Source: a virus. From it: DNA of 51,952 bases. Below, piece after piece: positions 2,331-26,248 of the stretch. The notes beneath the pieces are model-generated. The model saw only the letters and a program-made list of their open reading frames with translations, was not told the DNA's origin and did not search any database. Each line of letters begins with the position of its first letter. The first letter of the stretch is position 1. The position numbers and the translations under genes were made by a program. Where the stretch lies: the IMG/VR virus record IMGVR_UViG_3300025645_004784, positions 1 to 51,952 of that record, one strand, 5' to 3'.

Positions 2331-2900
2331 ATGATTATGGGAAGAATACGAGATCGTGGAAATGATGGTGGTAATGTTTGGCGTTGGAATACTTTAGAAA
2401 GATTCGTAAAAGAAAATAACTGGACAAAGGGTGCTGAGCTTGGCATTCATGATGGTGCTAATTTTAAACATCTTATTAAGTCTTGCCCAGATTTGAATCT
2501 TATCGGTGTAGATCTATATGAATCACAACCAGATAATAATGGCCCAGAAAAATGGACTCCTGGAGAAAACGGGCATCCTTGGAGTCACAACAAATATCAC
2601 CAAGACTTGTTAGCTTTCTCTAGTAATTATCCAGGTCGTGCGATCGTTATTAAAGATTATACTACTGAAGCTGCTAAGAACATACCAGACGGAAGTTTAG
2701 ACTTCGTGTTTATTGACGCTGATCACGGCTATGAAGGTTGTTTAAGAGATATTAAAGCTTGGGAAAGTAAAGTCCGCCCAGGTGGTAGAGTTATAGGTCA
2801 TGATATTCATTTCCCAACAGTTAAACGTGCAGTCACAGAATACTTTGGTGAAAATTCCTGGAATGTTGAAGATGATTTCGTTTGGTGGATTCAGAAGTAA
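2331..2900 (+). CDS. Class I SAM-dependent methyltransferase (Methyltransf_24-like)
   Basis: 189 residues. The SAM-binding motif I is GAELGIHDGANFKHL (about residues 36-50), followed by the acidic end of strand 2 (LIGVDLYES), then FVFIDADHGYEGCLRDIKAW and VRPGGRVIGHDIH, which are the motifs of the Methyltransf_24 group that often methylates sugars. SAM binding is therefore well supported, but the substrate is not. It is the first gene of a run with two glycosyltransferases and a sulfotransferase, suggesting glycan methylation. The start follows GCGGAGAA; a second ATG two codons later is possible. Confidence 0.8.
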   Translation: MIMGRIRDRGNDGGNVWRWNTLERFVKENNWTKGAELGIHDGANFKHLIKSCPDLNLIGVDLYESQPDNNGPEKWTPGENGHPWSHNKYHQDLLAFSSNYPGRAIVIKDYTTEAAKNIPDGSLDFVFIDADHGYEGCLRDIKAWESKVRPGGRVIGHDIHFPTVKRAVTEYFGENSWNVEDDFVWWIQK

Positions 2901-2908
2901 GGTTTATT

Positions 2909-3559
2909 ATGAATATTGAGAAGAAACTAACTCAAATATGGATTGGTCCTAAACCGGCTCCGTTGCAATGGATGCATACATGGAGAGATAAACATCCGGA
3001 CTGGAACTATTCCATATTTACAGATGAAATGTTAAAATCGCGCAAATGGCATAACCAACATCTTATTGACGCTTATTATAGTATGGGCAAATGGCCCGGC
3101 GTATCTGATCTAATTAGATACGAACTTCTATACGAGCACGGCGGTTTTTGGCCTGAAGCTGATATGGTATGTTTAGAAAATACCAATGAGTTATTTACTG
3201 CACCTGAAGATCATGCATATTCTTGTTATGAGAACGAAAAGGGCAGACAGAATTTCATTCAACCAATTATGGCTTGTAATCCCGGCAACGAATTTGTTAA
3301 GCATGTTATTGATACATTGCACCAAGTTAAAGCTAACGAATTAAGCCGCGAACCTTTTAGGTCTACGGGTAATATGTTCCTCTCAAAACATGTACCAAAT
3401 TGGAGGCATAAGCTCAATGTTTGGCCATCTCATTACTTTATTCCATTGTTTTATATTGGTGGCGCAAAAAGATATGACGGACCTGATAAAGTTTATGCAG
3501 ATCATAAATGGGGTTCCACTGGTCATGCCAATAGTATAACATATGATAGGGGTGTATAA
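2909..3559 (+). CDS. Glycosyltransferase with DXD motif (GT32/capsular type)
   Basis: 216 residues from the ATG at 2909, which follows TAAGGT and lies just after the previous stop. The N-terminus KKLTQIWIGPKPAPLQW and the block SDLIRYELLYEHGGFWPEADMVCLE are typical of the Gly_transf_sug (GT32-like) family; EADMV is the metal and nucleotide-sugar binding DXD region with the first Asp replaced by Glu. The end overlaps the next gene by one base (TAATG). It probably transfers a sugar to host or virion glycan; donor and acceptor unknown. Confidence 0.75.
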   Translation: MNIEKKLTQIWIGPKPAPLQWMHTWRDKHPDWNYSIFTDEMLKSRKWHNQHLIDAYYSMGKWPGVSDLIRYELLYEHGGFWPEADMVCLENTNELFTAPEDHAYSCYENEKGRQNFIQPIMACNPGNEFVKHVIDTLHQVKANELSREPFRSTGNMFLSKHVPNWRHKLNVWPSHYFIPLFYIGGAKRYDGPDKVYADHKWGSTGHANSITYDRGV

Positions 3560-4221
3560 TGTACGTTTCTCATAGATACAAATTAATTTTTCTTCGTTCA
3601 CCAAAGACTGCGAGCAGTAGTTTATCTGAATTTTTCATTAAGAATATTCCAGATGGAAACGCGATTTATACTCCAGTAGAAGATTCTAACATACGCGGCA
3701 ATCTTGATGGCAATATTGTTAAAAAGTATAAGCGTGATTTTAAATACTATCATCTTACTATTGAAGATTTAATTAAAGAAAATATCGTAACAGAACATCA
3801 AGCTAGAACTTATAAAGTTATTTCTGTTTTAAGAGATCCAGTTGATAGACAAAAAAGCTTCTTTTATTTCTACGCAAAATGGAAAGCTAGAGGAAAGCCT
3901 ATTGATTTAGCTCTATATAAACGGTTAGCGCCTAATGGCACTTTCCGTGATGAACCAAACTCAAGTTTAATACAAGCAGACTTTTCTAAATTTGGAAATG
4001 ATTATATCGGAGAATATTGGTTATATGAAAATATAAATAAATGCATATCTGATTTAATGCAAGAATTAAGTTTAGTAATAACTCATCCATTACCGAATCA
4101 CAAAGCAAATTTCAGAAAGAATAAAGAAAATGAGATTGTATTTGATGCTCATTGCTTAGAACAACTAAAAACGGCGTTTAACAAAGATTTCGAATTATAT
4201 AATGAACTGAAAGGAATGTGA
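3559..4221 (+). CDS. Sulfotransferase-family protein
   Basis: 220 residues. The N-terminal KLIFLRSPKTASSSLSEFF is the 5'-phosphosulfate (PAPS) binding loop of sulfotransferases (usual form PKTAGTS), and VISVLRDPVDRQKSFFYFY is the 3'-phosphate binding motif (RDPxxR). Together these support transfer of sulfate from PAPS to an acceptor, most likely a carbohydrate, given the flanking glycosyltransferases. Start ATG is coupled to the upstream stop. The catalytic base is not obvious to me, and no PAPS-synthesis gene is in view, so the host would supply the donor. Confidence 0.75.
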   Translation: MYVSHRYKLIFLRSPKTASSSLSEFFIKNIPDGNAIYTPVEDSNIRGNLDGNIVKKYKRDFKYYHLTIEDLIKENIVTEHQARTYKVISVLRDPVDRQKSFFYFYAKWKARGKPIDLALYKRLAPNGTFRDEPNSSLIQADFSKFGNDYIGEYWLYENINKCISDLMQELSLVITHPLPNHKANFRKNKENEIVFDAHCLEQLKTAFNKDFELYNELKGM

Positions 4222-4222
4222 T

Positions 4223-4915
4223 ATGTTGGCAATTAAAGCTTATATTCTAAAAATTAATACTCCTGTTTCAAACGAGTATGCTAAAGTCTGCGCAGATTCT
4301 TGTGATAAAGTGGGAATGTCCTGGACTTATTTTAATGGCTTCCAAGACCAGACTGGTAGATCAGCATTTGGGCAACTTGGTATTAAGAATTTACCTACTG
4401 AACAGTATGCTCGTTTAGAAAAAACAACACAAGCACAAAAGGCTATGTGTGCAACTGCGGGTCACATAGCCATCTGGAAAGCCATCTCAGAAGGTCCAGA
4501 TGACGCTGCAGTGATACTTGAACACGATGCTGTAATGTTACACCCATTAACTATTGATGTACCAGATGGCCAGATATTGGTTCTTGGATACAAGGTTTTA
4601 GATCCATCTAAGTATGATCATAAGCAAGCAGGCCCTCCTAAAGAACTAATATCAATTCAGGGACATGAAGGCGCACATGCTTATGCTATTACACGTACTA
4701 CAGCTAAATTACTTATACAAGAAATAGAAGAAAAAAGTATTAGAAGCGCAATTGATAATGACTATTTTATTAGAGGACAACGTAGAACATCTGTTCCTTT
4801 ATCAATAGTATCTCCAACACCAGCGCTAGGATGGTTAAGAGAATCTACCATTTGGGGTAAATCTGCAAACAGAAACTACGATTTCATACCTTCTTTTCAT
4901 AAAAATTATAAATAA
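4223..4915 (+). CDS. Glycosyltransferase family 25-like protein
   Basis: 230 residues. MLAIKAYILKINTPVSNEYA, the GHIAIWKAISEG segment and AAVILEHDAVMLHPL follow the order seen in the GT25 (LPS biosynthesis) family: short N-terminal strand, the loop where donor binds, then an acidic E-x-D-A motif. A second region, GHEGAHAYAITRTTAKLLI, matches the family's 'G..aYliS..gA..Ll' block. Two bases separate it from the sulfotransferase stop, so the four-gene glycan cassette is one operon. Acceptor unknown. Confidence 0.75.
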   Translation: MLAIKAYILKINTPVSNEYAKVCADSCDKVGMSWTYFNGFQDQTGRSAFGQLGIKNLPTEQYARLEKTTQAQKAMCATAGHIAIWKAISEGPDDAAVILEHDAVMLHPLTIDVPDGQILVLGYKVLDPSKYDHKQAGPPKELISIQGHEGAHAYAITRTTAKLLIQEIEEKSIRSAIDNDYFIRGQRRTSVPLSIVSPTPALGWLRESTIWGKSANRNYDFIPSFHKNYK

Positions 4916-4953: not shown

Positions 4954-7023
4954 ATGGCTAAGCCAGATACAAACAAAAAAATTAAAGGCTTCAAAGAGTT
5001 TGATGCTAAAAAGTACATTGAATTAGAACCGACTTTAGAGGAAGCTGTAAAGTCTGGTACAGTAGTTATGACTTTTGGCAGAATGAATCCTATGACAACA
5101 GGCCATGAAAAGCTTGTAGAGAAAGTACTTAAAGAAGCTAAAAGCCGCAAAGCAGAACCTATGGTTTTCCTTTCTCATTCTTCTGGTGCTAAATCAAAAT
5201 CAGGCAAAGGCGCAGTTAATAAAGATCCGTTGTCATATGACGATAAGATTAAGTATGCTACCAAAGCGTTTGGGCCAGTAGTTAAAAAATCTCCTTTAAA
5301 GATATTAATGCTAATTGTAAAATCTCTTTCAGGTCAATATAAGAATTTAGTAATGGTTGCTGGTTCAGATCGCGTTGACGAATACAATGTGTTACTTAAC
5401 AAATATAACGGCAAAGACTATACTTTTGATTCTATTGAAGTTATCTCTGCTGGTCAAAGAGATGCCGATGGCGAAGGCGCCGCTGGTATGTCTGGTACTA
5501 AAATGCGTGAGTTTGCTACTGCAGGTGATGTTAAAAAATTCGCAGGTGGTTTACCAAAAGCCCTTAAATCGAGTGCGCAGGAAATTATGGATAAAGTAGC
5601 TAATGCAATAAATCCTTCAATGGACGAAGAAGTTGAAGTTTTAGACGAAGTACTAGATCGTATGCAAAGACGCAAGCGCGGTATTGCAATGAAAAAAGCT
5701 CGATTTAAAATTAAACGCGGTAGAGAAAAAGCTGCTAAAAGAACTGCTTCCCAAGAAGTATTGAAAAAGCGCGCAAAGAAAGCTGCTATTAATATCTTCA
5801 AAGCAAAGTTCGCTAAGAATAAACGTTATGCTGATCTCTCACCAGGTGAGAAAGAGGTAGTCGAGAAGCGCATTGCAAAGATTAATAAAAGTCGTATCGA
5901 ACAGATCGCTCGCAAGCTCCTACCAAAAGTTAAACAAAAAGAAAGAGAACGACGTAAGTCTATGATGTCTGGCGGATCTTCTAAGAACGAAAGCATTAAC
6001 GAAGCATCTATTAAAGACCAAAGAATTTTACAAAAACCGCACATGTTACTAGATAAAGATAATAAGCCAAAGGTTGACGGTCGCTTCCGCATGTTTAAGA
6101 AGAAATCTGTTAACGAAAGCGTTGAAGATCTTTCAGAAGAAGTAATTGAGTTGATGGAAGCAACTGAACATTTTAATGAAGTTTTAAAACCTTCTGACGA
6201 TATGGGCGTTTGGATTAAAGATTTTAAAGACTCTGATGCCCCACAGTTTAAAGATAAGTCAGACGAAAAGAAACGCAAAATGGCCATTGCTGCTAAGTTA
6301 GCTGCTGAAGCTACTATCCCCGATGGCAAGACTGCTATGACTGCCCGCGATCCATTAACAAAGAGTGACGCCAAAACTATGAAAAAATTACGTGATATGA
6401 TGTCTAAAGAAAAGAAGCCGGTGTCTCAGATGTCTCCTAAAGAAAAGGCTGATAATGACAAGAAGCGTAAAGAGTATAACGCGTACCAAAAGTCTAAGCG
6501 TAACGAAGAAGTATCTGAAATCGAAGAAGGTGGACTTTGGGCTAATATCCATGCTAAACGCAAGCGTATTAAGAATGGTTCTGGAGAATCAATGAAGAAG
6601 CCCGGATCCAAAGGTGCTCCAACAGATCAAGATTTTAAAGATGCATCTGAAAGTATTGATGAAGCTGGTTATAAAAGAACTGGTGCTGAAAGAGCACGGT
6701 TTGATTCATTTAAAAGAAAAGAAATGCAACACGAGCTAGGCCACGAAGATAAAGCTGCTAAACGTGACAAGGAAGCTCACCACGTTTACATCAATGGTAA
6801 AGTCTGGAAGAAAGACGGTAAGCCACTTAGTTTTAGTAGCAAAGCTGCAGCTAACAAGTCAGGTTCTACTATTGCTGCAAAAGATCCTAAGAAAGATGTT
6901 AGAATCGCTCATCACACCTATCATGCAAAAAACGGCGATAATCTAAAAGAAGAAGGTGGAGCTGGCGAAGAAGGCACACCTAGTCTATTAGCTAGATTGA
7001 AAAAAGATACTCCTAATGGATAA
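4954..7023 (+). CDS. Virion protein with N-terminal nucleotidyltransferase domain and predicted prohead-protease sites
   Basis: 689 residues. Residues ~35-210 form a cytidylyltransferase-like nucleotidyltransferase fold: TFGRMNPMTTGHEKLVEKV has the (H/T)xGH motif, MVFLSHSS follows, and MSGTKMREFA is the (I/M)SxTxxR motif. The rest is very rich in Lys/Arg/Glu with low complexity, resembling an internal head protein. Several sites fit the T4 gp21 prohead-protease pattern (I/L)-x-E before a small residue: LEE/A near residue 30, LDE/V, INE/A, LME/A, IEE/G and IDE/A. Start follows TAGGATAAT. The next two virion genes share these features. The substrate is unknown; an enzyme packaged with DNA is an inference. 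Confidence 0.65.
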   Translation: MAKPDTNKKIKGFKEFDAKKYIELEPTLEEAVKSGTVVMTFGRMNPMTTGHEKLVEKVLKEAKSRKAEPMVFLSHSSGAKSKSGKGAVNKDPLSYDDKIKYATKAFGPVVKKSPLKILMLIVKSLSGQYKNLVMVAGSDRVDEYNVLLNKYNGKDYTFDSIEVISAGQRDADGEGAAGMSGTKMREFATAGDVKKFAGGLPKALKSSAQEIMDKVANAINPSMDEEVEVLDEVLDRMQRRKRGIAMKKARFKIKRGREKAAKRTASQEVLKKRAKKAAINIFKAKFAKNKRYADLSPGEKEVVEKRIAKINKSRIEQIARKLLPKVKQKERERRKSMMSGGSSKNESINEASIKDQRILQKPHMLLDKDNKPKVDGRFRMFKKKSVNESVEDLSEEVIELMEATEHFNEVLKPSDDMGVWIKDFKDSDAPQFKDKSDEKKRKMAIAAKLAAEATIPDGKTAMTARDPLTKSDAKTMKKLRDMMSKEKKPVSQMSPKEKADNDKKRKEYNAYQKSKRNEEVSEIEEGGLWANIHAKRKRIKNGSGESMKKPGSKGAPTDQDFKDASESIDEAGYKRTGAERARFDSFKRKEMQHELGHEDKAAKRDKEAHHVYINGKVWKKDGKPLSFSSKAAANKSGSTIAAKDPKKDVRIAHHTYHAKNGDNLKEEGGAGEEGTPSLLARLKKDTPNG

Positions 7024-7024
7024 T

Positions 7025-8212
7025 ATGATAACTTTTAAAGAACATACACAATTAAATGAAGGTGTTAATGACCCGGCTATTTTTAAAGCTATTTTCTTAG
7101 CTGGTGGTCCTGGATCTGGTAAATCTTTTGTTGTAGGTAAAACTGCTTTGCAACCAATGGGGTTTAAATTAATTAATTCAGATACTGCATTTGAAGTTGC
7201 GTTAAAGAAAGCTGGTTTAACCGGCGATCCGGAAGATATTATTTCTCCGAAAGGACAAGAAGCTAGAACTAAAGCTAAAGCTATAACAAAGTTGCAGATG
7301 GAGCTTGCTCTTGCTGGCCGGCTTGGTTTAGTTATAGATGGTACCGGCAAAGATCTTAAAAAGATTATGCAACAAGCTGTAGCACTAAAAAAACTTGGCT
7401 ACGATGTTTCTATGATATTTGTTAATAGCGACGAAGATACTGCTCAATATAGAAATAAACTTAGATCAAGAACTGTGCCAGCTGCGTTGGTATCTAAGAT
7501 GTGGAAAGATGTTCAAAAGAATATTGGCGGATTCCAAGCGTTCTTCGGTAATAATTTTCATGTTATTGATAATTCAGAAGGTTCAGATTTTACTACCCAA
7601 ATTAATAACGTATACAAAAAAATTATGGTTTGGGCTAAGAAAACACCAAAGAATCCCGCAGTATCTAAATGGGTTAAAAGCCAAAAGAATCCTGCCAAAG
7701 ATTACGTATCTGAAAGCACAGAAGTTGAAGAAGGCTGGGCAGGTAAAGCAGTAGGTAAACTAGTATACAATAAAATGTATAAGCATGCTGCTAATATTTT
7801 ACAAGATGTGTGGGATCGTAAAAAATCTGAGAGTACTAGATTAAAACATGGTATAGAATATTACGCAGCTCAAATTGCAAAACAATACCAAGGTGTTGAT
7901 GCACGAGAACTTGCTAAAATGGTTACTGAAGCTAAAGATCCACGAATTGATAAGGCCGGTGTTTCTGGTTTTAATAAAGCTAAAAGAACACCGAGTCATC
8001 CAACAAAAAGCCACATCGTTGTAGCAAAAGACGGTAATAAGATTAAGACTATTCGGTTTGGTGAGCAAGGCGCTTCTACTGCTGGTGAACCTAAGAGTGG
8101 TGAATCAGATAAGATGAAAGCTAAACGGAAGTCTTTTAAAGCTCGACACGGTAAAAACATTGCCAAAGGTAAGATGTCGGCAGCATATTGGGCAGATAAA
8201 GAGAAGTGGTGA
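7025..8212 (+). CDS. P-loop kinase (zeta-toxin-like) with capsid-targeting leader
   Basis: 395 residues from the ATG at 7025; an in-frame ATG at 7016 overlaps the previous stop. I prefer 7025 because MITFKEHTQLNEG then aligns with the leader of the next virion gene and with the T4 internal-protein leader (MKTYQEFIAE, from memory). After it come AIFLAGGPGSGKSFVVGK (Walker A), INSDTAFEVALKKAG and LGLVIDGTGKDLKKI (Walker B-like), the layout of zeta-toxin/AAA_33 kinases. From about residue 210 the protein is basic and repetitive, with possible cleavage sites VEE/G and VTE/A. Probably a head-packaged protein; whether it phosphorylates anything is unknown. Confidence 0.65.
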   Translation: MITFKEHTQLNEGVNDPAIFKAIFLAGGPGSGKSFVVGKTALQPMGFKLINSDTAFEVALKKAGLTGDPEDIISPKGQEARTKAKAITKLQMELALAGRLGLVIDGTGKDLKKIMQQAVALKKLGYDVSMIFVNSDEDTAQYRNKLRSRTVPAALVSKMWKDVQKNIGGFQAFFGNNFHVIDNSEGSDFTTQINNVYKKIMVWAKKTPKNPAVSKWVKSQKNPAKDYVSESTEVEEGWAGKAVGKLVYNKMYKHAANILQDVWDRKKSESTRLKHGIEYYAAQIAKQYQGVDARELAKMVTEAKDPRIDKAGVSGFNKAKRTPSHPTKSHIVVAKDGNKIKTIRFGEQGASTAGEPKSGESDKMKAKRKSFKARHGKNIAKGKMSAAYWADKEKW

Positions 8213-8220
8213 TCGCTTTT

Positions 8221-8228
8221 TATAAATA
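8221..8228 (+). promoter_or_regulatory. T4-type late promoter motif TATAAATA
   Basis: An exact TATAAATA 7 bases after the kinase stop codon and 47 bases before the next virion gene, the expected place for a late transcription start. Confidence 0.6.
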
Positions 8229-8275
8229 TCACTAAATGGTTACATTACTAACAAAACAAAAAAAGGCCCGAATTA

Positions 8276-9220
8276 ATGAGAAGTTTTAAACGACATATCG
8301 ACGAAGCTGCTAGCATGGTTTGCCAAGACTGCGGTTGCGAACAAGGTAATCCTAAGCCAGGATGCGATTGTACTCACGACTCGACTAAACTCAATGCTTC
8401 TTGCTGGGTATCAAAAGAGTCATATTTAAAAGCTTCTAAGAAGCCAGTGAGTGAAGCGGTTGATAAGTCTAGCCCGGTTTACAAAGAATATCTTTTGCTA
8501 AAGAAAAAGTCCATAAAAGACTTACGTAAGTCACTTGACCAAAAAGGTCGTGGTGCTGTAGACTTAAAATCATACGATAAGCAAGGTGCTATTTCAGATC
8601 TTCTTCGTGGCCAATTTGGTAGTAAGAAAGTTGCTGCTGCAATGGGTGTTGCTGAAGCTTACGATCCTAAAGCTGTAGTTTCTCCAGAGCAAAAGAAAAA
8701 GAATATTGAAGCTGCTAAGAAGAAAAGCAAAAAAACTTTGCCTTGGCAGAAGAATTATGATGATAGAAAGCGTAAAGAGCCAGGAATGAATGAAGGCAAA
8801 ATGGCTGAACTTCAAGGCTATATCGATGATGGTAAATCGGCTGCTTGGATTGCTAAGAAGATTGGTTTCCCTCTTAAAGATGTTAAAGACTTTTTGAAGC
8901 AAAACAAGGCTTTTAGTGAATCTGAAATTAATAATATAACTGCCCAGTATATTAATGAGCACAATATTGCTTCACAAGATCTAGAAAACATGACTGAAGA
9001 CGAGCTCAACGAGCTGATCAGCGAAGCACTTCAAGAAGTTAGTTTAGCAGAAGCTGCTTATACGATCAAAGACGGTGAAGTACATATATCAAAAGCAAAC
9101 TTCCGTAAGATTCATAAAGATCTCAAAGACACCAAAAAGGGTGATGAGATGATGATGATTGATGGTGGTAAAAAAGGTTCCATAATGGTGCCTGTAGTAT
9201 TTGAAGAAACAAATAAATAA
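8276..9220 (+). CDS. Internal head-like protein with capsid-targeting leader and Cys-rich segment
   Basis: 314 residues, Lys/Glu rich. The first ten residues, MRSFKRHIDE, followed by AAS, match the T4 capsid-targeting leader in length and pattern, with a gp21-type site IDE/A exactly after residue 10. Further candidate sites are VSE/A, VAE/A, MNE/G, ISE/A and LAE/A. Residues ~15-45 are a Cys cluster (CQDCGCEQGNPKPGCDC, then NASCW) that could bind zinc. The C-terminal ~60 residues look like a small folded domain. It follows a TATAAATA late promoter. Likely packaged inside the capsid; role unknown. Confidence 0.6.
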   Translation: MRSFKRHIDEAASMVCQDCGCEQGNPKPGCDCTHDSTKLNASCWVSKESYLKASKKPVSEAVDKSSPVYKEYLLLKKKSIKDLRKSLDQKGRGAVDLKSYDKQGAISDLLRGQFGSKKVAAAMGVAEAYDPKAVVSPEQKKKNIEAAKKKSKKTLPWQKNYDDRKRKEPGMNEGKMAELQGYIDDGKSAAWIAKKIGFPLKDVKDFLKQNKAFSESEINNITAQYINEHNIASQDLENMTEDELNELISEALQEVSLAEAAYTIKDGEVHISKANFRKIHKDLKDTKKGDEMMMIDGGKKGSIMVPVVFEETNK

Positions 9221-11576: not shown

Positions 11577-11807
11577 ATGTCTTTAGAGAAAATTGTTGCA
11601 GAAGCAATGGCAGGGCGTCCACTAGAAATGAAAGAAGCCTTTGCAGAAGAAATCGAGTCACGCATTCAAGATCGTCTTGAGGAAAAATACGTCGAAATCA
11701 TGGAAGCTAAAAAAGATGACATGGAAGACGAAGATGACATGGAAGATGAAGATGAAGAAGACGATGAAGACGATGAAGACGAAGACGAAGACGAAGATGA
11801 CAAGTAA
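11577..11807 (+). CDS. Acidic prohead core protein, gp67-like
   Basis: 76 residues. The N-terminal half is helical (MSLEKIVAEAMAGRPLEMKE) and the C-terminal ~30 residues are almost only Asp and Glu with a final Lys. T4 gp67 (PIP), a scaffold component cleaved by the prohead protease, has the same size and layout, including a short AEAMAAR-like stretch and an Asp/Glu tail. The assignment rests on this resemblance from memory. It has a very strong ribosome site (AAAGGAGAGAAAC). An AATAAATA motif near 11528 may be a variant late promoter. Confidence 0.5.
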   Translation: MSLEKIVAEAMAGRPLEMKEAFAEEIESRIQDRLEEKYVEIMEAKKDDMEDEDDMEDEDEEDDEDDEDEDEDEDDK

Positions 11808-18079: not shown

Positions 18080-19207
18080 ATGAGCGTTTTTGATGTCCAA
18101 AACCGCGTTGACCATACCTCAGTTGCTTCCTTTTTGGATCCAACTGGGGGACCAACAATTCAGCGTTATGACACACTCAAGTATAAGCAGTTTGATCAAC
18201 TTACCGATAAACAGCTTGGATTCTTTTGGCGGCCAGAAGAAGTAGATATCTACCAAGATGCAAAAGATTTTAAAGCTCTTACTGAGCATGAACAACACAT
18301 CTTTACTTCAAATCTGAAGCGACAAATTCTTCTAGATAGTGTACAAGGTCGAGCACCAGCAGAAAGCTTTGGATCTATTGTTTCATTGCCCGAACTTGAA
18401 AACTGGATTATCACTTGGACATTCTCCGAGACGATCCATAGTCGTTCTTACACTCATATCATTCGTAACATCTATTCAAATCCATCTAAGATTTTTGATG
18501 AGATGCTGGATGTTAAAGAGATTGCAGATTGTGCTGGGTCTATCTCAGGTTACTATGACGCTCTTATTGAGATGGCTGGCTACTATAACCTATTGGGTGT
18601 TGGTACACATACAGTTAACGGCAAAAAAGTAGTAGTTGATCTATATCAATTAAAGAAACTTTTGTATCTTTGCTTGATGAGTGTTAATATTCTTGAAGGT
18701 GTTCGTTTTTATGTTTCGTTTGCATGCTCTTGGGCATTTGCAGAATTGAAGAAGATGGAGGGTAATGCTAAAATCATTAAGCTTATTGCTCGTGATGAAA
18801 ACCTCCACCTTGCTTCTACTCAAATGATGCTTAAGTTGCTTAAACAAGAAGATAAAGACTTTGTAAAGATTGAAGAAGAAACACGCGAAGAATGTACTCA
18901 AATGTTTGTTGATGCAGTAGATCAAGAAAAACAGTGGGCAAAATATCTATTCAAAGATGGATCTATGATTGGTTTGAATACAGAGTTGCTTTCACAATAT
19001 ATCGAGTTCATTGCAACTCGTCGTATGACTAATGTAAAACTCACTTCACCTTATAGTATTAAAAGTAATCCGCTGCCTTGGACCCAAAAATGGATCTCTG
19101 GTGCTGATGTTCAAGTGGCTCCACAAGAAACAGAAATTACTTCTTATGTTCAAGGTGGCACAAAACAAGATGTATCATCTGATACATTCAAGGGGTTCTC
19201 ACTGTAA
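18080..19207 (+). CDS. nrdB: Ribonucleoside-diphosphate reductase beta subunit, class Ia
   Basis: 375 residues. The di-iron ligands appear in order: the Asp/Glu of the [11 protein letters not shown] region, then [18 protein letters not shown] (E..H), then [15 protein letters not shown] (E..H). The radical Tyr lies in the first helix-pair region. It houses the tyrosyl radical that drives NrdA. The TAATG overlap couples it to the ALAS gene, so an iron enzyme and the first heme-pathway enzyme are made from one message. Confidence 0.95.
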
Positions 19208-20397
19208 TGTATGAAGAATATTTTGAACAAACAATAAAAGATTTTTGCGTAGATGGTCGTTATAGAGTATTCAATGATATTCTTAGAGAACGTGGATCTT
19301 TCCCAGAAGCTATATGGTATGGTAAATATGCGCCAAAGAACATTGTTAATTGGTGTTCAAACGATTATCTTGGTATGGGCCAAAACGAATATGTAGTAAG
19401 CGCCATGCATACAGCATTAGATCAATCTGGTTCTGGTTCTGGCGGTACTCGAAATATTGGTGGAACATCACAGTATCACGTAACACTAGAACGAGAACTT
19501 GCTAGTTTACATTCTAAGCCTGCATCGTTACTTTTCACAAGTGCTTATGTTGCTAACGAATGGTCTCTTATTGCGTTGAGCAAAATTATTCCAAATATTT
19601 GTTTTATTTCTGACAGTAAAAATCATGCTTCGTTGATTGTTGGTATGTCGCATAGTCGGGCTACTAAAAAGATTTTTAAACATAATAATCTAGATGATTT
19701 AGAAGCACAACTCAAAGCCGCAGTAAAGGCAAAACACATTCCTTGTATTGTATTTGAGTCTGTTTATTCTATGGATGGTGATATTAGTCCGATGGAAGCT
19801 ATCTGTGATCTTGCAGATAAATATGACGCAATTACTTATATTGATGAAGTCCACGCTGTTGGTCTATACGGTGAACAAGGTGCGGGTTGGTGCGAAAAGT
19901 TAGGTTTAACAGATAGGATTGATATTATCAATGGTACACTCGGCAAAGCATTCGGGGTACAAGGTGGCTATATTGTCGGTAACACTAATATCATTGACTC
20001 TATTAGGTGTGTTGCTAGCGGGTTTATATTCACGACATCAACAAGCCCAGTCATTTGTGCCGGAGCCTTGGCATCTATCAGATATCTCCGTGATCATCCT
20101 CAACTAAGAGATAAGCACCAAGAACGAACTACAAAACTAAAAGAAATGCTAGCTGAAGCTGGTATACCAATACACAAAACCGCATGTACACACATAGTAC
20201 CAGTAATGGTTAATGACGCGTTTAAGTGCAAAACTGCAAGTGATCGTCTTTTAAATGAATACGGTATATATATTCAGGCAATCAATGCGCCAACCGTAGA
20301 AGCAGGTACAGAAAGATTAAGAATAGCACCTACGCCGTTTCATGATGATATTATGATGATACAGCTTGTTGAAGCATTAAAAGAGGTATTGAAATGA
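19207..20397 (+). CDS. hemA: 5-Aminolevulinate synthase (Shemin pathway)
   Basis: 396 residues, full length. Condenses glycine and succinyl-CoA to 5-aminolevulinate, the first step of tetrapyrrole synthesis in Alphaproteobacteria. It follows Rhodobacter HemA block for block: GRYRVF near the N-terminus, [67 protein letters not shown], and [18 protein letters not shown] with the PLP-binding Lys 247. The GRYR and SGSGGTRNI(G/S)GT blocks favour ALAS over its relatives BioF and KBL. It ends [12 protein letters not shown] like the host enzyme. Coupled to nrdB upstream and DUF454 downstream. Confidence 0.95.
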
Positions 20398-20447
20398 ATC
20401 AACTTCAAAATGCATATTTTGCTAGATTTAAACAAAAGGAAATTATT

Positions 20448-20867
20448 ATGAATAAAATTAAAAGAGCGTTTTGGTTTACACTAGGAATTATCTTGGTAGG
20501 AGTAGCTTATCTTGGAGTCATTCTTCCAGGCTTACCTTGGAGTACTCCAATTCTTGGGGCAACGTTTTGCTTTGCAAAATCAAGTCCAAGATTCCACGCT
20601 TGGATTATGAATCACCCGCGATTTGGTCCATTCATTAAAGAGTGGAGTAAATATCGAGTGTATCCAACTCCAGCAAAGTATCTAATGGTTGCGGTAATGT
20701 CTACATCACTTGTGGTCTTTTTCCTTACTCTTGCAAACGTAAAAGCTACCATTTATATGGCTATTACTTTTGCGTTAATTATCGTTTGGGCTACTCGCTA
20801 TCCTGGTTCAAAAGCAGAAGCTGAACGAAGAATCGATGCTGGTGAAAAGATTGGTTGGCTAAAGTAA
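20448..20867 (+). CDS. DUF454 (YbaN-like) small membrane protein
   Basis: 139 residues from ATG 20448. RAFWFTLGIILVGVAYLGVI, LPGLPWSTPILGATFCFAKS and SPRFHAWIMNHPRFGPFIKE are the DUF454 signature, and two more hydrophobic segments follow (about 85-125), giving three or four membrane helices. Start choice: 20448 has AAAAGGAAA upstream and coincides with the usual family start. An in-frame ATG at 20394 overlaps the ALAS stop (ATGA) and would add 18 residues. Function of the family is unknown to me; being locked behind ALAS suggests a link to tetrapyrroles, which is inference. Confidence 0.8.
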   Translation: MNKIKRAFWFTLGIILVGVAYLGVILPGLPWSTPILGATFCFAKSSPRFHAWIMNHPRFGPFIKEWSKYRVYPTPAKYLMVAVMSTSLVVFFLTLANVKATIYMAITFALIIVWATRYPGSKAEAERRIDAGEKIGWLK

Positions 20868-20882
20868 ATAAATAAACTCAAC

Positions 20883-20903
20883 AACCCTTCGATGTGGAGG
20901 GTT
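20883..20903 (+). terminator. Hairpin, probable terminator of the nrdB-ALAS unit
   Basis: AACCCTTC pairs with GGAGGGTT (8 bp, one T-G) around GATGT, followed by only a short T run (TTTAT). It lies right after the DUF454 stop. Confidence 0.55.
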
Positions 20904-20942
20904 TATAAACACTTACACAATGTTATTGATGACGGAGATATA

Positions 20943-21968
20943 ATGGCTAAGAAAATCCTAATTACCGGTGGCGGTGGTTTCATTGCACACCATCTGATCA
21001 ACCAAGTACTCAAAAGAACTGATTGGGAAATTGTTACTGTAGATCGATTAGATTACAGCGGCAACCTCAATCGTTTGCATGATCTTCTTCAAGAAAGAAC
21101 CCCAGAAGAACGTAAGCGTCTTCGTACTATTTTCCACGATCTAAAAGCAGAATTCAATCCAATGCTTGTTGCAGATATCGGCGACGTTGATATTGTTGCA
21201 CACTTAGCAGCTGGATCACACGTTGATAGGTCAATTGACTTTCCAATGGAATTTGTAATGGATAACGTTGTTGGTACATGTAACATTTTAGAATTTGCAC
21301 GTAAGCAACCAAACTTAGAACGTTTCCTATATTTCTCAACTGACGAAGTATTTGGTCCTGCGCCAGAAGGTGTTAACTACGACGAGTACGATCGTTACAA
21401 TTCTACCAATCCTTATTCTGCTTCTAAAGCAGGCGCAGAAGAACTTTGCGTAGCATATCAAAATACATATAATATGCCTATCTATATTACGCATACAATG
21501 AATGTGTTTGGTGAACGTCAACATCCTGAGAAGTTTATTCCTATGACTATCCGTAATGTACGTGATGGTGGTATGGTAACAATTCACTCTGATGAGACTA
21601 AAACAATCGCTGGTTCACGTCATTATATTCACGCTGAAGATGTTGCAGACGCCACTTTGTTCTTGCTTGAGCACGAAGGTACACTAAATGTTACAAATAA
21701 CAATGGCGTTAAGTGTCCTAAGTTTAACATCTGCGGTGCTACTGAGTTATCTAACTTAGAGTTAGCACAAATGATTGCTGATGCACAAGGTAAAGAATTA
21801 AAGTATCAAATGCAAGATTTCCATTCTTCACGTCCGGGTCACGATCTACGATATGCTCTTAGTGGTGAACGTATGAAACAAATGGGATGGGAGCCAACTG
21901 CTGTACAACAACGTATTGCTGAAGTAGTTAAATGGACATTAGAAAATAGAAGGTGGTTAGACATATGA
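20943..21968 (+). CDS. NAD-dependent sugar-nucleotide epimerase/dehydratase (dTDP-glucose 4,6-dehydratase-like)
   Basis: 341 residues. An extended short-chain dehydrogenase: ILITGGGGFIAHHLINQVL (NAD-binding GxxGxxI), HLAAGSHVDRSIDFP, FLYFSTDEVFGPAPEG (the TDE motif typical of RmlB), and NPYSASKAGAEELC with the YxxxK catalytic pair. RmlB makes dTDP-4-keto-6-deoxyglucose. TDEVFG, HVDRSI and the YSASKAG block point to the RmlB group, but the sugar is not proven. ATG 20943 follows GGAGATATA; an upstream in-frame codon at 20892 falls inside the terminator. ATGA overlap with the next gene. Confidence 0.88.
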   Translation: MAKKILITGGGGFIAHHLINQVLKRTDWEIVTVDRLDYSGNLNRLHDLLQERTPEERKRLRTIFHDLKAEFNPMLVADIGDVDIVAHLAAGSHVDRSIDFPMEFVMDNVVGTCNILEFARKQPNLERFLYFSTDEVFGPAPEGVNYDEYDRYNSTNPYSASKAGAEELCVAYQNTYNMPIYITHTMNVFGERQHPEKFIPMTIRNVRDGGMVTIHSDETKTIAGSRHYIHAEDVADATLFLLEHEGTLNVTNNNGVKCPKFNICGATELSNLELAQMIADAQGKELKYQMQDFHSSRPGHDLRYALSGERMKQMGWEPTAVQQRIAEVVKWTLENRRWLDI

Positions 21969-22552
21969 ATATGAAAGATTTTGAAAGAATCATTGAAAAA
22001 GAATACCAAGACGAATTGAATAATCCGTCTGATATTAATGAACATGTGCATGACTTGCTCACACTAGCCTTAGACTGCACACATGTTACTGAGTTTGGTA
22101 GTAGGTTTGGTTCTAGTACAAAGGCCTTTCTGAAGGCTCCTGTGACCCTTAGAGCATACGATCTGGAAATTCATAATCCTCTTATGAACCTATTTAAAAT
22201 GGCTCGTAAGGTCGGTAAAGATGTAGAATATGAAAAGGGTAATACTCTTAGTCTTCTTATTGAACCAACTGATATGATCTTTATTGATACTTGGCATTCA
22301 CAAAGGCAATTACGTGATGAACTAAAGCTTCACGGTAATGCTGCCCGCAAGTATCTTGCTTTCCATGATACACACACTTATGGTGTACGTGATGAACAAG
22401 CAGATTGGGCTAAAAATCCCGATCGTAAAGCTATGGCTGGTCAAGGATTACTTCCAGCGATTATTGATTTTGTAATTGCAAATCCTCATTGGAAGTTCAG
22501 GACGCATAAGACAAATAATAATGGATTAACTGTTTTGGAAAGAAGAGGCTAA
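21965..22552 (+). CDS. Methyltransferase-like protein (Methyltransf_24/CmcI-like)
   Basis: 195 residues from the ATG overlapping the previous TGA; GAAGGTGG lies upstream, and an in-frame ATG two codons later is possible. THVTEFGSRFGSSTKAFLKA is a SAM-binding motif I, then LRAYDLE (acidic strand 2), DMIFIDTWHSQRQLRDEL and KYLAFHDTHTYG, which resemble the CmcI/cephalosporin hydroxylase-like methyltransferase group. It sits between a sugar-nucleotide enzyme and a GT17-sulfotransferase fusion, so a sugar or glycolipid substrate is likely. Activity not provable from sequence. Confidence 0.7.
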   Translation: MNMKDFERIIEKEYQDELNNPSDINEHVHDLLTLALDCTHVTEFGSRFGSSTKAFLKAPVTLRAYDLEIHNPLMNLFKMARKVGKDVEYEKGNTLSLLIEPTDMIFIDTWHSQRQLRDELKLHGNAARKYLAFHDTHTYGVRDEQADWAKNPDRKAMAGQGLLPAIIDFVIANPHWKFRTHKTNNNGLTVLERRG

Positions 22553-22553
22553 T

Positions 22554-24143
22554 ATGCAAGTTGTAGATTGTTTTCCTTGGTTTGCTCCCTACGGAGAAGA
22601 ACTACTTTATCTGCGTGTAAATCTGTTAAAAGACCACGTAGATAAATTCATTATTGTTGAATCAAATAAGACTCATGCTGGTCATCCCGTGGAACGAAAG
22701 TTCCCGGAGGTGGCTCGCAAGCTTGGTCTGCCTATAGAAAAGATTATCTATATTGAACATGATATTCCTGAGACCGAAGATCTGGAAATTCTAGATATAG
22801 ATCGAAGGAATGCTGGTAATAACGCTAGTAATAAAGATTCGCTACTAGCGCGTGTTCGTGAACGTTTACAAAAAGACGCTGTGATGATGGCATTGCGAGA
22901 TTTTGAAAAGCGCGATGTGTTTATTTACGGTGATGCTGATGAAATCATTGATCCAAAACATATTAAGTGGTTAGCAAAACAAGCTCACAATCATCCTAAT
23001 ATTATTGTTAAAGTTCCATTAGTATATCTTCAAGGTAGAGCTGATTTACGAATCCATCATAAAGATGGCCGGGCCGTTATTTGGAAGCGAGCTATGTTTA
23101 TAGCTACCAAAGAGCAAATTCAGCATTGCAAAATCAGTAACATTCGTTGCGGCAATATTAATATACCAATTCGGTTTCCAACTCAAGACGGTATTGTGCA
23201 AGAAGATATGGGTTGGCATTTTGCTTGGATGGGCAGCAATGCTCAACGTCAAACAAAGGCAGAATCTTTTGCTCATGCTTTTGATAGCTTTAAATGGCAT
23301 ACTGAAGGCGGTTACGCAGACTATAAGCAATTCGTAGATACTACAGAACCTGTTGAAGGTAACATTGCTCCTGATAGTAATGAAGATCATATTCTTAAAA
23401 GATATCCACATGATAGTCTTCCTAAACTAATTTTCGAATCTCCTTTAGTTAAAGAGTTCTTATTACCAGAAGTTAAGCTTGATTCAAATCACGTGTTTAA
23501 TGATTGCAATTGTTATTGGTGCCAAAAATTAGAATGGCCTTTATTATATGACCTAGAAAATAATCATGAGAAGCTTTGGTTTGAAGTTCCACGCAGTTGT
23601 TCTGTAACCATTAAAGAAAGCTTTCCATCGCGTATTCAAGTAATGCGTGATACTAGATTGTATAACCGTTTCGTTGAAGAAAAGAAAAAGCCTATCATGA
23701 TATTTACAGATCCAATCGATCGATTCATTTCGTTGATTAATGTGTACCTTACTGATAAGCAACGTTACTCTGACTACGGTAAAGACATCTTTAGTACCTT
23801 TGACAAAGATATAACTCAGCTGACAAAGCAAGAAAAGATTGATTTGTTTTTTGCTAATCTTAATAAGATTACGTCTGGGCACCAGGTCCATCACTTCCAT
23901 CCACAATGCCGGTTTGTTGATACTGAAAGCTTTGAGGATATAGAAGTTGTACGTCGTGAAGATGTTAATAAGTACTTTGGTATAGATCAAATGCATAATG
24001 TAACTAAGAAAGACATTACTGCTGCAGATTTTTCTGAAGAACAAATTGACTTCATTGAGAGAGCATACGTTAGCGATTACGCATTCTTAGAAAAATATGG
24101 TGTGAAAAATGGCAAAGCTAAAAGTAAACGAAAGAACAGTTGA
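22554..24143 (+). CDS. Fusion: GT17-like glycosyltransferase plus sulfotransferase-like domain
   Basis: 529 residues. Residues ~1-280 resemble glycosyltransferase family 17: VVDCFPWFAPYGEELLYLRV, DKFIIVESNKTHAGHPVERK, and FIYGDADEIIDPKHIKWLA containing the DAD metal motif. A short Cys-rich linker (DCNCYWCQKLEWP) follows at ~325. Residues ~335-520 look like a Sulfotransfer_2-type domain: WFEVPRSCSVTIKESF occupies the PAPS-loop position, MIFTDPIDRFISLINVYL has the RDP..R-like motif (here TDPIDR), and VHHFHPQCRFVD follows. One polypeptide might add and sulfate a sugar. The first Arg of the RDP motif is Thr, so sulfotransferase activity is less sure. Confidence 0.7.
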   Translation: MQVVDCFPWFAPYGEELLYLRVNLLKDHVDKFIIVESNKTHAGHPVERKFPEVARKLGLPIEKIIYIEHDIPETEDLEILDIDRRNAGNNASNKDSLLARVRERLQKDAVMMALRDFEKRDVFIYGDADEIIDPKHIKWLAKQAHNHPNIIVKVPLVYLQGRADLRIHHKDGRAVIWKRAMFIATKEQIQHCKISNIRCGNINIPIRFPTQDGIVQEDMGWHFAWMGSNAQRQTKAESFAHAFDSFKWHTEGGYADYKQFVDTTEPVEGNIAPDSNEDHILKRYPHDSLPKLIFESPLVKEFLLPEVKLDSNHVFNDCNCYWCQKLEWPLLYDLENNHEKLWFEVPRSCSVTIKESFPSRIQVMRDTRLYNRFVEEKKKPIMIFTDPIDRFISLINVYLTDKQRYSDYGKDIFSTFDKDITQLTKQEKIDLFFANLNKITSGHQVHHFHPQCRFVDTESFEDIEVVRREDVNKYFGIDQMHNVTKKDITAADFSEEQIDFIERAYVSDYAFLEKYGVKNGKAKSKRKNS

Positions 24144-24348
24144 AGCTCTTCAGCTAGAAATCGATCATCATAAGAAAGAGAAAGCTTATGTCCTCAGAGA
24201 GAACGATTCTCTGAGGGCTGATCGCATGATGCTCCTTGAGATGCTTTCTGACTTAACTGAAAACGAAAGTTACTGGGCAGAAGATGTAGCAACAAAAACT
24301 ACAGTTTGGCGTCTAAAAAACTTGCTAAATAACCTAAAAAGTAGTTGA
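24109..24348 (+). CDS. Small coiled-coil protein, unknown function
   Basis: 79 residues, overlapping the preceding gene by 35 bases. It is almost entirely helical and charged (LQLEIDHHKKEKAYVLREND) with heptad-like spacing. The TGA stop is inside the -35 box of the next promoter. No family recognised. Confidence 0.55.
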   Translation: MAKLKVNERTVEALQLEIDHHKKEKAYVLRENDSLRADRMMLLEMLSDLTENESYWAEDVATKTTVWRLKNLLNNLKSS

Positions 24349-24373
24349 CATTATTCCTTAACTAACTTATAAT
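24345..24373 (+). promoter_or_regulatory. Sigma70 promoter for the wall hydrolase-hemE-hemF-hemC unit
   Basis: TTGACA, 17-base spacer, TATAAT, a perfect consensus. The upstream TGA lies in the -35. Its -10 region (AACTAACTTATAATA) and leader (TATAAGAAATGAGGAAG at 24379-24395) recur exactly at 41770-41890. Confidence 0.88.
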
Positions 24374-24399
24374 ATTATTATAAGAAATGAGGAAGATAC

Positions 24400-24909
24400 A
24401 TGTTGATTAATATACTCAGTACTATCCTAACCGGTACTATGATTATTGGTACCGCGTTTACTCCAATTTACGCAAATCAAGCTATGCGCACTACGCAATT
24501 TGTGCAAGCAAATGAAGCTGAGGCTCAATGCTTAGCTCTTAATGTTTATTACGAAGCTCGTAGTAGTAATTTAGCAGATAAAGCTGGTGTTGCGGATGTA
24601 GTTTTAAATCGTGTAGCAGACCGCCGTTACCCTGATACGATCTGCGACGTAGTACAAGACGGTTATAAGTCAGGCCGAAAAGATTGTCAATTTTCTTGGT
24701 ATTGCGATGGAAAGCCGGATGTACCTGTAGATTTAGACCGCTGGTTTGAAGCTCAGACCGTAGCATATAATATGATCGAGTTTAAAGAATATCGAGGTAT
24801 TTCTGAAGGTGCAACACATTATCATGCAACATATGTAAATCCATTCTGGGCATCTTCTTTGCGCATGGTTGGTCGCATTGGTGAGCATATTTACTACCGT
24901 TGGGAATAG
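24400..24909 (+). CDS. Secreted cell-wall hydrolase (SleB/Hydrolase_2-like)
   Basis: 169 residues. The first ~25 are a signal sequence (LSTILTGTMIIGTAFTPIYA) with a probable cleavage site after YANQA. The rest is a Hydrolase_2 (SleB/CwlJ) domain: ALNVYYEARSSNLADKAGVA with the catalytic Glu, VVLNRVADRRYPDTICDVV, CQFSWYCDG and GATHYHATYVNPFW. It would act on peptidoglycan in the periplasm without a holin. It is the first gene of the hemE unit under a strong early-type promoter, unusual for a wall hydrolase and in addition to the GH19 lysin. Start follows GAGGAAGATAC. Confidence 0.85.
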   Translation: MLINILSTILTGTMIIGTAFTPIYANQAMRTTQFVQANEAEAQCLALNVYYEARSSNLADKAGVADVVLNRVADRRYPDTICDVVQDGYKSGRKDCQFSWYCDGKPDVPVDLDRWFEAQTVAYNMIEFKEYRGISEGATHYHATYVNPFWASSLRMVGRIGEHIYYRWE

Positions 24910-24921
24910 AGGAAGTTAGAA

Positions 24922-25902
24922 ATGGACGCAAATAAATTTACTAATGCTGTTAATCGAGTAGAGCAGTCGTGTCCTCCTATTTGGATGATGAGACAAGCTG
25001 GTCGTTATCAGCCTTCGTATATGGAAATAAAAGAATCATACAACTTTGAGCAGATGTGTAAACTACCACAGATCGCTTCTAAAGTTGCTATGTTGCCAAT
25101 TAATGATTTTGACTTTGATGCTGCTATATTGTTTAGTGACATTCTTTGGCATGTCGAAGGGCTAGGACTTCCTTTGAAGTTTGATCCAGCCCCTAAGTTT
25201 GAGTTTCATCTTAACGAAGATAATTGGCAAAACCATACTGATGTTGAAAAGGCAATGGATCATCTAGACTTTCAACAAACAGCTATGGCTACTACTCGAG
25301 ATATACTACCAGATCATAAGAGTCTAATTGGATTTGTTGGTGGTCCTTGGAGTGTATTGAATTATGCTCTTGGTGGTAATAAAGTAAGCAATGATTTTAA
25401 GACTACATATCTTACAGAAGTTATTATTCCATTAATGGTTAAAAGTATTAGAGCACAGAAAGTAGCAGGCGCTGATGTCGTAATGATTTTCGATAGTGGT
25501 CTAAGTAATATAAGTAAAGCATATTACGAAAATACATATCTACCAATGCTTGAGCAACTTGCATTGATTGGTAACGTTGGTTATTATTCACGTGATTTAC
25601 CAAAAGGCTCTTTGCCGAAAGTAAAGAAAATGAATTTTGCTGGCATCGGTATTGATTCTACTGAAGATTTAGCTAAAACATTACAGACACATAAGAATGG
25701 TTTTGTTCAAGGTAACTTCAATGAACAGCATATGTTACTAGAAAATAAACTGTATCATTACGAATTAGATAAGTGGCTTGATAGTTTAGATGGAGTTGAT
25801 ACTACTGGTTGGATATGCGGACTCGGTCACGGTATTCATAAGACTACTCCTACTCGTAATATTACATATTTTATTGATACCGTAAGGAATAGATTTGATT
25901 AG
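24922..25902 (+). CDS. hemE: Uroporphyrinogen III decarboxylase
   Basis: 326 residues, slightly shorter than the usual ~345-350. Removes four carboxyl groups from uroporphyrinogen III to give coproporphyrinogen III. The family signature PPIWMMRQAGRYQPSY is at residues 18-33, with substrate Arg 24 and Arg 28. AAILFSDILWHVEGLGLPL holds the catalytic Asp 73. GFVGGPWSVLNYALGG has the substrate Tyr region, and GWICGLGHGIHKTTPTRN gives the C-terminal conserved His. All core residues I can check are kept, so activity is plausible. The start follows GAGGAAGTTAGAA, 12 bases after the wall hydrolase stop. Confidence 0.95.
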   Translation: MDANKFTNAVNRVEQSCPPIWMMRQAGRYQPSYMEIKESYNFEQMCKLPQIASKVAMLPINDFDFDAAILFSDILWHVEGLGLPLKFDPAPKFEFHLNEDNWQNHTDVEKAMDHLDFQQTAMATTRDILPDHKSLIGFVGGPWSVLNYALGGNKVSNDFKTTYLTEVIIPLMVKSIRAQKVAGADVVMIFDSGLSNISKAYYENTYLPMLEQLALIGNVGYYSRDLPKGSLPKVKKMNFAGIGIDSTEDLAKTLQTHKNGFVQGNFNEQHMLLENKLYHYELDKWLDSLDGVDTTGWICGLGHGIHKTTPTRNITYFIDTVRNRFD

Positions 25903-26248
25903 TTATAGCACAAATTGGATGGGTCCTGTTTCTACTCGTTGGTATGAGGAAAGGGACATACCGTTTGTATTGAAGAAAACATCAGGGAAGATATTACCAG
26001 TAGTAGAGTATAAAGACTTTTTAGAAAGCTATTCTTGTGGTCGTATCGACATCTATGGACTAGATGATGATACATACTGGTGCGGCAAATCAGAATATGG
26101 TGTTGCTCCTATGCGTACAGAAGACTGGAATGCCTTTGGTGATTGGTTGGACAATATAGAAGATGAAAGTCTGATTACATATGAAGAACTGATACGTCAA
26201 TTCGAAGAACACTATGGCAACAAGATAAGGTGGATTGATAATGTTTAA
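25895..26248 (+). CDS. Conserved marine phage protein, unknown function
   Basis: 117 residues, TTG start with AAGGA 7 bases upstream, overlapping hemE by 8 bases; ATG 25919 is an alternative. It starts ISYSTNWMGPVSTRWYEER and contains SCGRIDIYG and APMRTEDWNAFGDWLD. I recall relatives standing alone in T4-like marine phages, so it is probably a generic phage gene caught between hemE and hemF, not a tetrapyrrole enzyme. It is too short and unlike HemD. Confidence 0.7.
   Translation: MISYSTNWMGPVSTRWYEERDIPFVLKKTSGKILPVVEYKDFLESYSCGRIDIYGLDDDTYWCGKSEYGVAPMRTEDWNAFGDWLDNIEDESLITYEELIRQFEEHYGNKIRWIDNV

Follow-up and report, generated by a model that had tools for sequence, protein, structure and literature searches.

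In bacteriophage T4, the head cargo comprises the internal proteins IPI-III and Alt, with short leaders that are cut off after [LIF]xE, and Alt is an enzyme delivered together with the DNA (PMC9026906). We analyzed three genes, named here by their start positions 4954, 7025 and 8276, in the virus record IMGVR_UViG_3300025645_004784, a 51,952-base fragment from a marine T4-superfamily phage (in the following, the window). They resemble the T4 cargo in the predicted cut and in enzyme content and, for two of the three, in leader length and pattern. In contrast to T4, where the cargo consists of single proteins, enzymes and small modules are strung together here, a site being likely at each joint, and they are permuted or fused across phages. 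We conclude, with a probability of about two in three, that the three genes encode cargo that is packaged into the head and cut by a protease, as the T4 internal proteins and Alt are, but in polyprotein form. We speak of cargo polyproteins rather than simple internal proteins because these are modular enzymes with sites at their module joints. Family scans of the three genes returned no internal-protein or Alt family, but nucleotidyltransferase (NTase), kinase and small-module families instead. As the mature parts lack homology, the cargo is proposed to function like IPI-III and Alt rather than to belong to them.

Several other systems invite comparison. Ejection proteins of SPN3US and phiKZ are likewise head cargo matured by a prohead protease, with long propeptides cut at several motif sites. 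However, all identified cuts but one remove an N-terminal propeptide from one mature protein (PMC10052503), whereas several modules would be freed here. Polyvalent proteins (Iyer et al. 2017, PMC5512222) are multidomain and phage-encoded, mix enzymatic and small domains and are predicted to be packaged and injected. Their processing has been proposed to occur mostly by a built-in metallopeptidase (PMC5512222), whereas a separate S77 prohead protease would act here; moreover, Pfam, PHROGs and NCBIfam scans found none of the polyvalent hallmark domains (MPTase, ArdC-N, DdrB-like ParB, PBECR and others) in the three genes. DarA/Hdf and DdrB of phage P1 are similar by description, i.e., proteolysed head-packaged proteins, DarA being antirestriction (PMC5512222). 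The cyanophage protein T4-GC190 (S-SM1, S-SZBM1) and virion proteins resembling nicotinamide mononucleotide adenylyltransferase (NMNAT) were found in virions and are linked to this locus by the NTase family, the leader and synteny with a head protein, primase and nrdA/B. The cyanophage cytidylyltransferase forms have about 360–390 residues, compared with 689 residues and extra modules here, and the passages covered of the cyanophage virion papers mention neither leaders nor protease sites. An open-access literature search, with most subscription papers outside its reach, returned no account of head cargo in polyprotein form, nor of leaders for head targeting in marine T4-like phages.

All three open reading frames (ORFs) proposed in an initial annotation of the window are present on the plus strand, at 4954–7023, 7016/7025–8212 and 8276–9220 (689, 398/395 and 314 residues, respectively). 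The gene order runs from the cargo genes over a head protein, a DUF7207 gene, lysis genes, primase, dihydrofolate reductase and thymidylate synthase to nrdA and nrdB. We assign the window to the T4 superfamily because this order is like that of phiM12, S-SM1 and S-SZBM1. The features of the cargo locus are as follows (^ marks a predicted cut; breakpoints are homology breakpoints in residues; confidence of AlphaFold models is given as predicted local distance difference test, pLDDT).

4954..7023, plus strand: gene 1, 689 residues, an NTase-fold enzyme and, after it, a series of small basic modules (phrog_3041 'cytidyltransferase' 4e-61, phrog_395 3e-30)
5041..5043, plus strand: predicted cut site E30 (PTLEE^AVKS) directly before the NTase domain, in a low-confidence linker (25–32) of the AF2 model
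5044..5619, plus strand: adenylyl/cytidylyltransferase-like domain, about residues 31–222 (FGRMNPxTxGHEKL; MSGTKMR), from families, motifs and fold
5647..5649, plus strand: predicted cut at E232 (EVLDE^VLD), coinciding with a homology breakpoint and adjoining low pLDDT at 223–231
5650..6003, plus strand: basic helical module, residues 233–350, ending at SINE^A350 (breakpoints 223–233 and 336–350; low pLDDT 343–363)
6529..6663, plus strand: phrog_16028 module (1e-19), residues 526–570, between EIEE^G525 and SIDE^A570 (breakpoints 522–524 and 570–571)
7016..8212, plus strand: gene 2, 395 residues from the ATG at 7025 (398 from the ATG at 7016), with leader, P-loop kinase and two small modules
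7025..7060, plus strand: capsid-targeting-like leader MITFKEHTQLNE^G
7061..7687, plus strand: P-loop kinase domain, about residues 13–221 (GGPGSGKS), from AAA_33, Zeta_toxin and folds
7733..7930, plus strand: middle module, residues 237–302, between VSE^S230/VEE^G236 and VTE^A302 (breakpoints 229–243 and 300–302; low pLDDT 226–247)
7931..8209, plus strand: C-terminal phrog_7595 module, residues 303–395, a stand-alone gene in many podo- and siphophages
8276..9220, plus strand: gene 3, 314 residues, at least five small modules
8276..8305, plus strand: capsid-targeting-like leader MRSFKRHIDE^A
8306..8455, plus strand: Cys-rich module (CQDCGCEQGNPKPGCDC), ending at PVSE^A60 (match to Melnitz residues 164–197)
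8456..8656, plus strand: module 61–127 (VDKSSPVYKEYLLLKK...), between VSE^A60 and VAE^A127 (breakpoints 54.5/61.5 and 123.5/129.5)
8657..9052, plus strand: modules 128–173 and 174–259, with sites MNE^G173, ISE^A250, LQE^V254 and LAE^A259 (breakpoints 170.5/175.5, 252.5 and 261.5)
9053..9217, plus strand: C-terminal module 260–314 (AAYTIKDGEVHISKANFRKIHKDLKD...), present too in the relative loci L124, L137, L134 and L139
9257..9724, plus strand: adjacent head protein (phrog_613), whose S-SZBM1 homologue 136 is found in virions

The T4 record shows IPI starting with MKTFKEF...ITE^A and both IPII and IPIII with MKTYQEFIAE^A. T4-type leaders had been proposed for all three genes, and this holds for two of them: a short N-terminal leader (about 10–20 residues) ending in a prohead-protease site is present on genes 7025 and 8276, but not at the start of gene 4954. 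With a leader score trained on the leaders of other phages, genes 7025 and 8276 ranked first and second among 70 window ORFs (18.3 and 12.4), where about zero would be expected above 8 and one unrelated window ORF reached 8.7. As controls, the three internal-protein genes came out top in T4 and two NTase-cluster genes in S-SM1, which is partly circular because SSM1_190 and the T4 leaders had served to train the score. Searching whole genomes with a strict regular expression for the leader worked poorly (3/70 window ORFs, 3–4 per set elsewhere), and the trained score performed better. The same leader type is common to otherwise unrelated domains, i.e., the free-standing kinase, the NTase, the phrog_7595 module, gene-8276-like proteins and T4 IPI-III.

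We compared site numbers with shuffled sequences, as the initial annotation had suggested. For the three proteins together, [IL]xE[AGSV] occurred 12 times with 3.1 expected (p≤0.0005) and [LIVM]xE[AGS] 17 times with 4.8 expected; the reversed motif was at chance and the xK control slightly raised. The excess was found for gene 4954 (7 versus 1.6, p 0.001) and gene 8276 (4 versus 0.8, p 0.007), but for gene 7025 [IL]xE[AGSV] was not enriched significantly (1 versus 0.7), only [LIVM]xE[AGS] (4 versus 1.0, p 0.014). In gene 4954, the predicted LEE/A site near residue 30 was confirmed as TLEE^A30, followed by six further [IL]xE[AGSV] sites where at least five had been announced. Among 76 non-redundant family members the motif was found 282 times compared with 139±11 in shuffles, with Leu at position P3 enriched threefold before E^[AGS]. 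All three proteins had also been described as Lys/Glu rich: the K+E content of genes 4954, 7025 and 8276 is indeed raised (25, 19 and 24% versus 14% elsewhere), but gene 7025 is Lys-rich without being rich in Glu.

The placement of sites relative to homology breakpoints, taken from BLAST alignments with relatives, is a stronger test than motif counts. Internal sites lay within three residues of a breakpoint in 16/17 cases with 6.5 expected (p 2e-4, the lowest value that the placement test can give), whereas controls were at chance, both for xE with non-hydrophobic P3 (12/24, 9.4 expected) and for [LIVM]xK (7/17, 6.6 expected). In AlphaFold models, seven of 12 sites were located where pLDDT drops under 50 (3.0 expected, p 0.013). 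The leaders and the [I/L]xE sites are hence real and beyond chance.

The initial annotation had not recognized the enzymes or the modular build of these genes. The domain that follows TLEE^A30 belongs to the nucleotidyltransferase (CTP_transf_like/adenylyltransferase) superfamily, by its motifs, phrog_3041 and fold. TxGH and (I/M)SxTxxR-type (SxxxxR) motifs are invariant or nearly so in the family, and the nearest folds were phosphopantetheine adenylyltransferase (PPAT) and nicotinic acid mononucleotide/nicotinamide mononucleotide (NaMN/NMN) adenylyltransferases, all Rossmann-like. Pfam PF01467 gave 14.3 bits, under its cut-off of 21, and a PDB sequence search with the NTase returned no matches; the fold search did better. 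In relatives the site is conserved as [LI]xE^A directly before the NTase domain. SmpB and HIT matches of genes 8276 and 4954 were weak, stayed under cut-off and were rejected.

The gene 7025 kinase falls in the AAA_33/zeta/polynucleotide-kinase group, by Walker A motif, fold and profile thresholds (AAA_33 2e-9, 38.3 bits versus a cut-off of 27; Zeta_toxin 1e-6, 28.5 versus 22.3). Nearest in the fold search were phosphoseryl-tRNA kinase (PSTK), bacterial polynucleotide kinase and zeta toxin; a PDB sequence search performed less well and gave weak adenylate kinase matches at best. Directly upstream of the kinase domain, [LIVMF]xE^G is present in 44/44 non-redundant members, whether free-standing or within fusions of about 850–1300 residues. 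Taken alone, this site could be a property of the domain itself. That reading is weakened because the NTase, the phrog_7595 module and gene-8276-like proteins have similar leaders. In other contigs NTase and kinase are joined in single proteins of about 850–1300 residues, and in Atu_ph07 the kinase sits after a different N-terminal domain, behind MKWNDLNE^A. The modules of gene 8276 recur in relatives in other orders, e.g., in the locus L017 the 'KMKELQDYIDQGKS' module precedes the 'VDKSSPVYKEYL' module, opposite to the window.

S77 protease was found in 6/6 annotated cargo-gene relatives (HTVC008M, Melnitz, Atu_ph07, phiM12, DLP6 and S-SM1) and in 8/20 relative contigs, the others being mostly fragments. 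At the cut site of gp23, T4 has FLTE^A, to which ILTE^T of S-SM1 and FLGE^I of HTVC008M align; in gp23 of S-SZBM1 the sequence is ILTE^A. We therefore consider an [LI]xE protease rule plausible in these phages. The phrog_7595 module provides a natural control. Free-standing phrog_7595 genes in T4-like contigs begin with leaders, e.g., MKSFKTFAEE, MLKFKEFITE and MKTFKQLKEELYE. In six podo- and siphophages, CRP-1, P12053L, KBS-S-2A, D274, S-CBS2 and SIO1 (the SIO1 start being uncertain), the protein starts directly with the module and has no leader, and S77 protease was found in 0/6 of these.

For the virion itself, the evidence comes from other phages. A 'citidylyltransferase', T4-GC190, was detected in purified S-SM1 virions by Sullivan et al. 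2010 (PMC3037559). It is SSM1_190 in the S-SM1 record, has the leader MKKFSAFLNE^A and shares 42% identity with the gene 4954 domain. In S-SZBM1, the cytidylyltransferase S-SZBM1_140, its neighbor 139 and the head protein 136 were reported from virions (PMC9146016). S-SZBM1_140 has the leader MRFRQFIIE^A, and its domain is 31% identical to that of gene 4954; 136 has its match in the window head gene at 9257. Proteins described as NMNAT- or cytidylyltransferase-like have likewise been reported from virions of S-CREM2, S-SCSM1 and S-CBWM1 (PMC10665884, PMC9602691). Packaging, as proposed in the initial annotation, is therefore supported through homologues, both of gene 4954 and of the head gene at 9257, in purified virions, in other phages only.

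By analogy with T4 (PMC9026906), we infer loading by the leader, internal cutting and ejection with the DNA. The leader, M-x-x-F-K-x-[FHY]...[LIVMF]-x-E^, would dock the protein in the prohead core like the T4 internal-protein leader, and a T4 gp21-type (S77) prohead protease would then remove it by cutting after [LIVMF]xE. Cuts at internal sites would yield separate modules, i.e., the NTase, the P-loop kinase and a number of small fragments, most of them basic. These may be retained in the filled head and be injected along with the DNA. In the cell, ahead of any phage gene expression, the substrates of the two enzymes would be nucleotides, nucleic-acid ends or cofactors of the nicotinamide adenine dinucleotide (NAD)/coenzyme A (CoA) type. 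More speculatively, an adenylyltransferase paired with a kinase would point to a chemistry of cofactors (NAD, CoA) or of nucleic-acid ends.

A number of observations weigh against the cargo polyprotein reading. The remaining window proteins have a mild motif excess as well (32 versus 20), so part of the excess is generic. In a family-wide boundary test the reversed motif was likewise up 1.8-fold at module starts; as this test is not fully specific alone, we rely on the breakpoint test of the window proteins with its controls. The P1' residue is E, K, D or R in several leaders. Gene 4954 starts without a T4-like leader, its first site following a Lys-rich head of 30 residues, and 13/63 listed NTase-family proteins, about a fifth, start right at the domain. 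Site E61 of gene 4954 sits in a confident helix of the modeled NTase fold and probably escapes cutting. Neither an S77 protease gene nor capsid genes were found in the 52-kb window fragment, the missing S77 gene being the adverse point. We found no published virion data for relatives of genes 7025 or 8276. Finally, according to the authors who described the S-SCSM1 virions, enzymes like these could represent carry-over after cesium chloride purification (PMC10665884, PMC9602691).

Gene 8276 and the tails of genes 4954 and 7025 might instead be accessory proteins of the prohead core or scaffold, comparable to gp22 and gp67 of T4 and cut at many sites to peptides that mostly leave the head, so that only the enzymes or nothing would be delivered. 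T4 gp22 has ten [LIVMF]xE[AGSV] sites and is reduced to small fragments (PMC9026906), and the modules here are small, basic and K/E rich. Yet the pieces between sites are conserved, permuted and separately encoded modules, which degradation products need not be, the catalytic motifs of the enzyme domains are conserved, and the neighboring modular protein S-SZBM1_139 was found in mature virions. We hence regard a pure core role as unlikely. It would also be conceivable that only the leader and pre-enzyme sites are cut, and that the internal [LIV]xE sequences are unused, flexible Glu-rich linkers from gene fusions. Linkers are generally E-rich, former leaders of fused genes would leave such sequences, and the 1.8-fold rise of the reversed motif at module boundaries points the same way. 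However, in the window proteins only the hydrophobic-P3 form clusters at breakpoints (16/17) and controls do not, Leu at P3 is threefold enriched, and sites are kept while their neighbors vary. These results make uncut linkers distinctly improbable.

Packaging might be absent altogether: the proteins could be enzymes that serve nucleotide or RNA metabolism in the cytoplasm and have a conserved N-terminal helix, whose likeness to the T4 leader is due to chance or another role. The leaderless fifth of the NTase proteins and the closeness of the genes to replication and nucleotide genes (primase, nrdA/B) would fit. On the other side stand the homologues published in several purified virions, the adjacent head gene and the leader that is missing in the six phages without S77; we consider this explanation highly improbable.

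If correct, the cargo polyprotein reading would explain the presence of the core cyanophage 'cytidylyltransferase' in virions, till now an auxiliary metabolic gene or unexplained virion protein, by a T4-style head-targeting leader. The T4 capsid-targeting signal would thereby extend from coliphages to marine T4-superfamily phages, a simple sequence rule would be at hand for listing their head cargo, and many small delivered proteins would be predicted inside large 'hypothetical' genes. At roughly even odds, the arrangement has a more general use: a portable leader and a site at each joint would let phages add, shuffle and fuse effector modules or enzymes, and several proteins would be freed by the capsid protease while still in the head, ready for delivery at the very onset of infection. 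With the delivered NTase and kinase, the phage could counter host defense, e.g., by repair of nucleic-acid ends or by restoring NAD-type cofactors.

Leader-bearing genes also neighbor the cargo genes in Melnitz, HTVC008M and DLP6 (L167 620–2945, L165 3191–5474 and L170 2179–3414), with the starts MQGFKTFLSE^A, MLSFTGYSNLSE^A and MMKFTQFLAE^S, and possibly encode further head cargo. One of them, DUF6267, has a KYDGAPSI/KWDGAPAI motif that recalls ligases. In Atu_ph07 (L168 208–5608), four related tandem genes have leader-like starts (MRWEQLTE^S, MKWNDLNE^A) and a 'YRGM' motif, the last being fused to the kinase. A Pfam scan did not recognize their first domain; the motif is suggestive of ADP-ribosyltransferases.

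Just upstream of the cargo genes, at 2331–4915, lie methyltransferase-like, glycosyltransferase and sulfotransferase-like genes. Downstream, at 11577–11807, a 76-residue ORF has a long acidic tail and the sites VAE^A and IME^A; in length and make-up it is like the T4 prohead core protein gp67, but homology could not be shown and no family match supported it. Four heme-pathway genes are located at 19207–27787 of the window: 5-aminolevulinate synthase (19207, TIGR01821 1.7e-167), hemE (24922), hemF (26235) and hemC (27017). A published account already describes phage alaS and does not include hemC and hemF (PMC11480375). Relatives of hemF occur in 39 viral loci, mostly at 58–100% identity and some on contigs with cargo genes (contigs of L083 and L088); among isolate-phage records there were distant matches only, mostly to bacterial-looking records. 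A 1107-residue protein with a long collagen-like GxQG repeat, encoded at 44836–48159, is probably a fiber.

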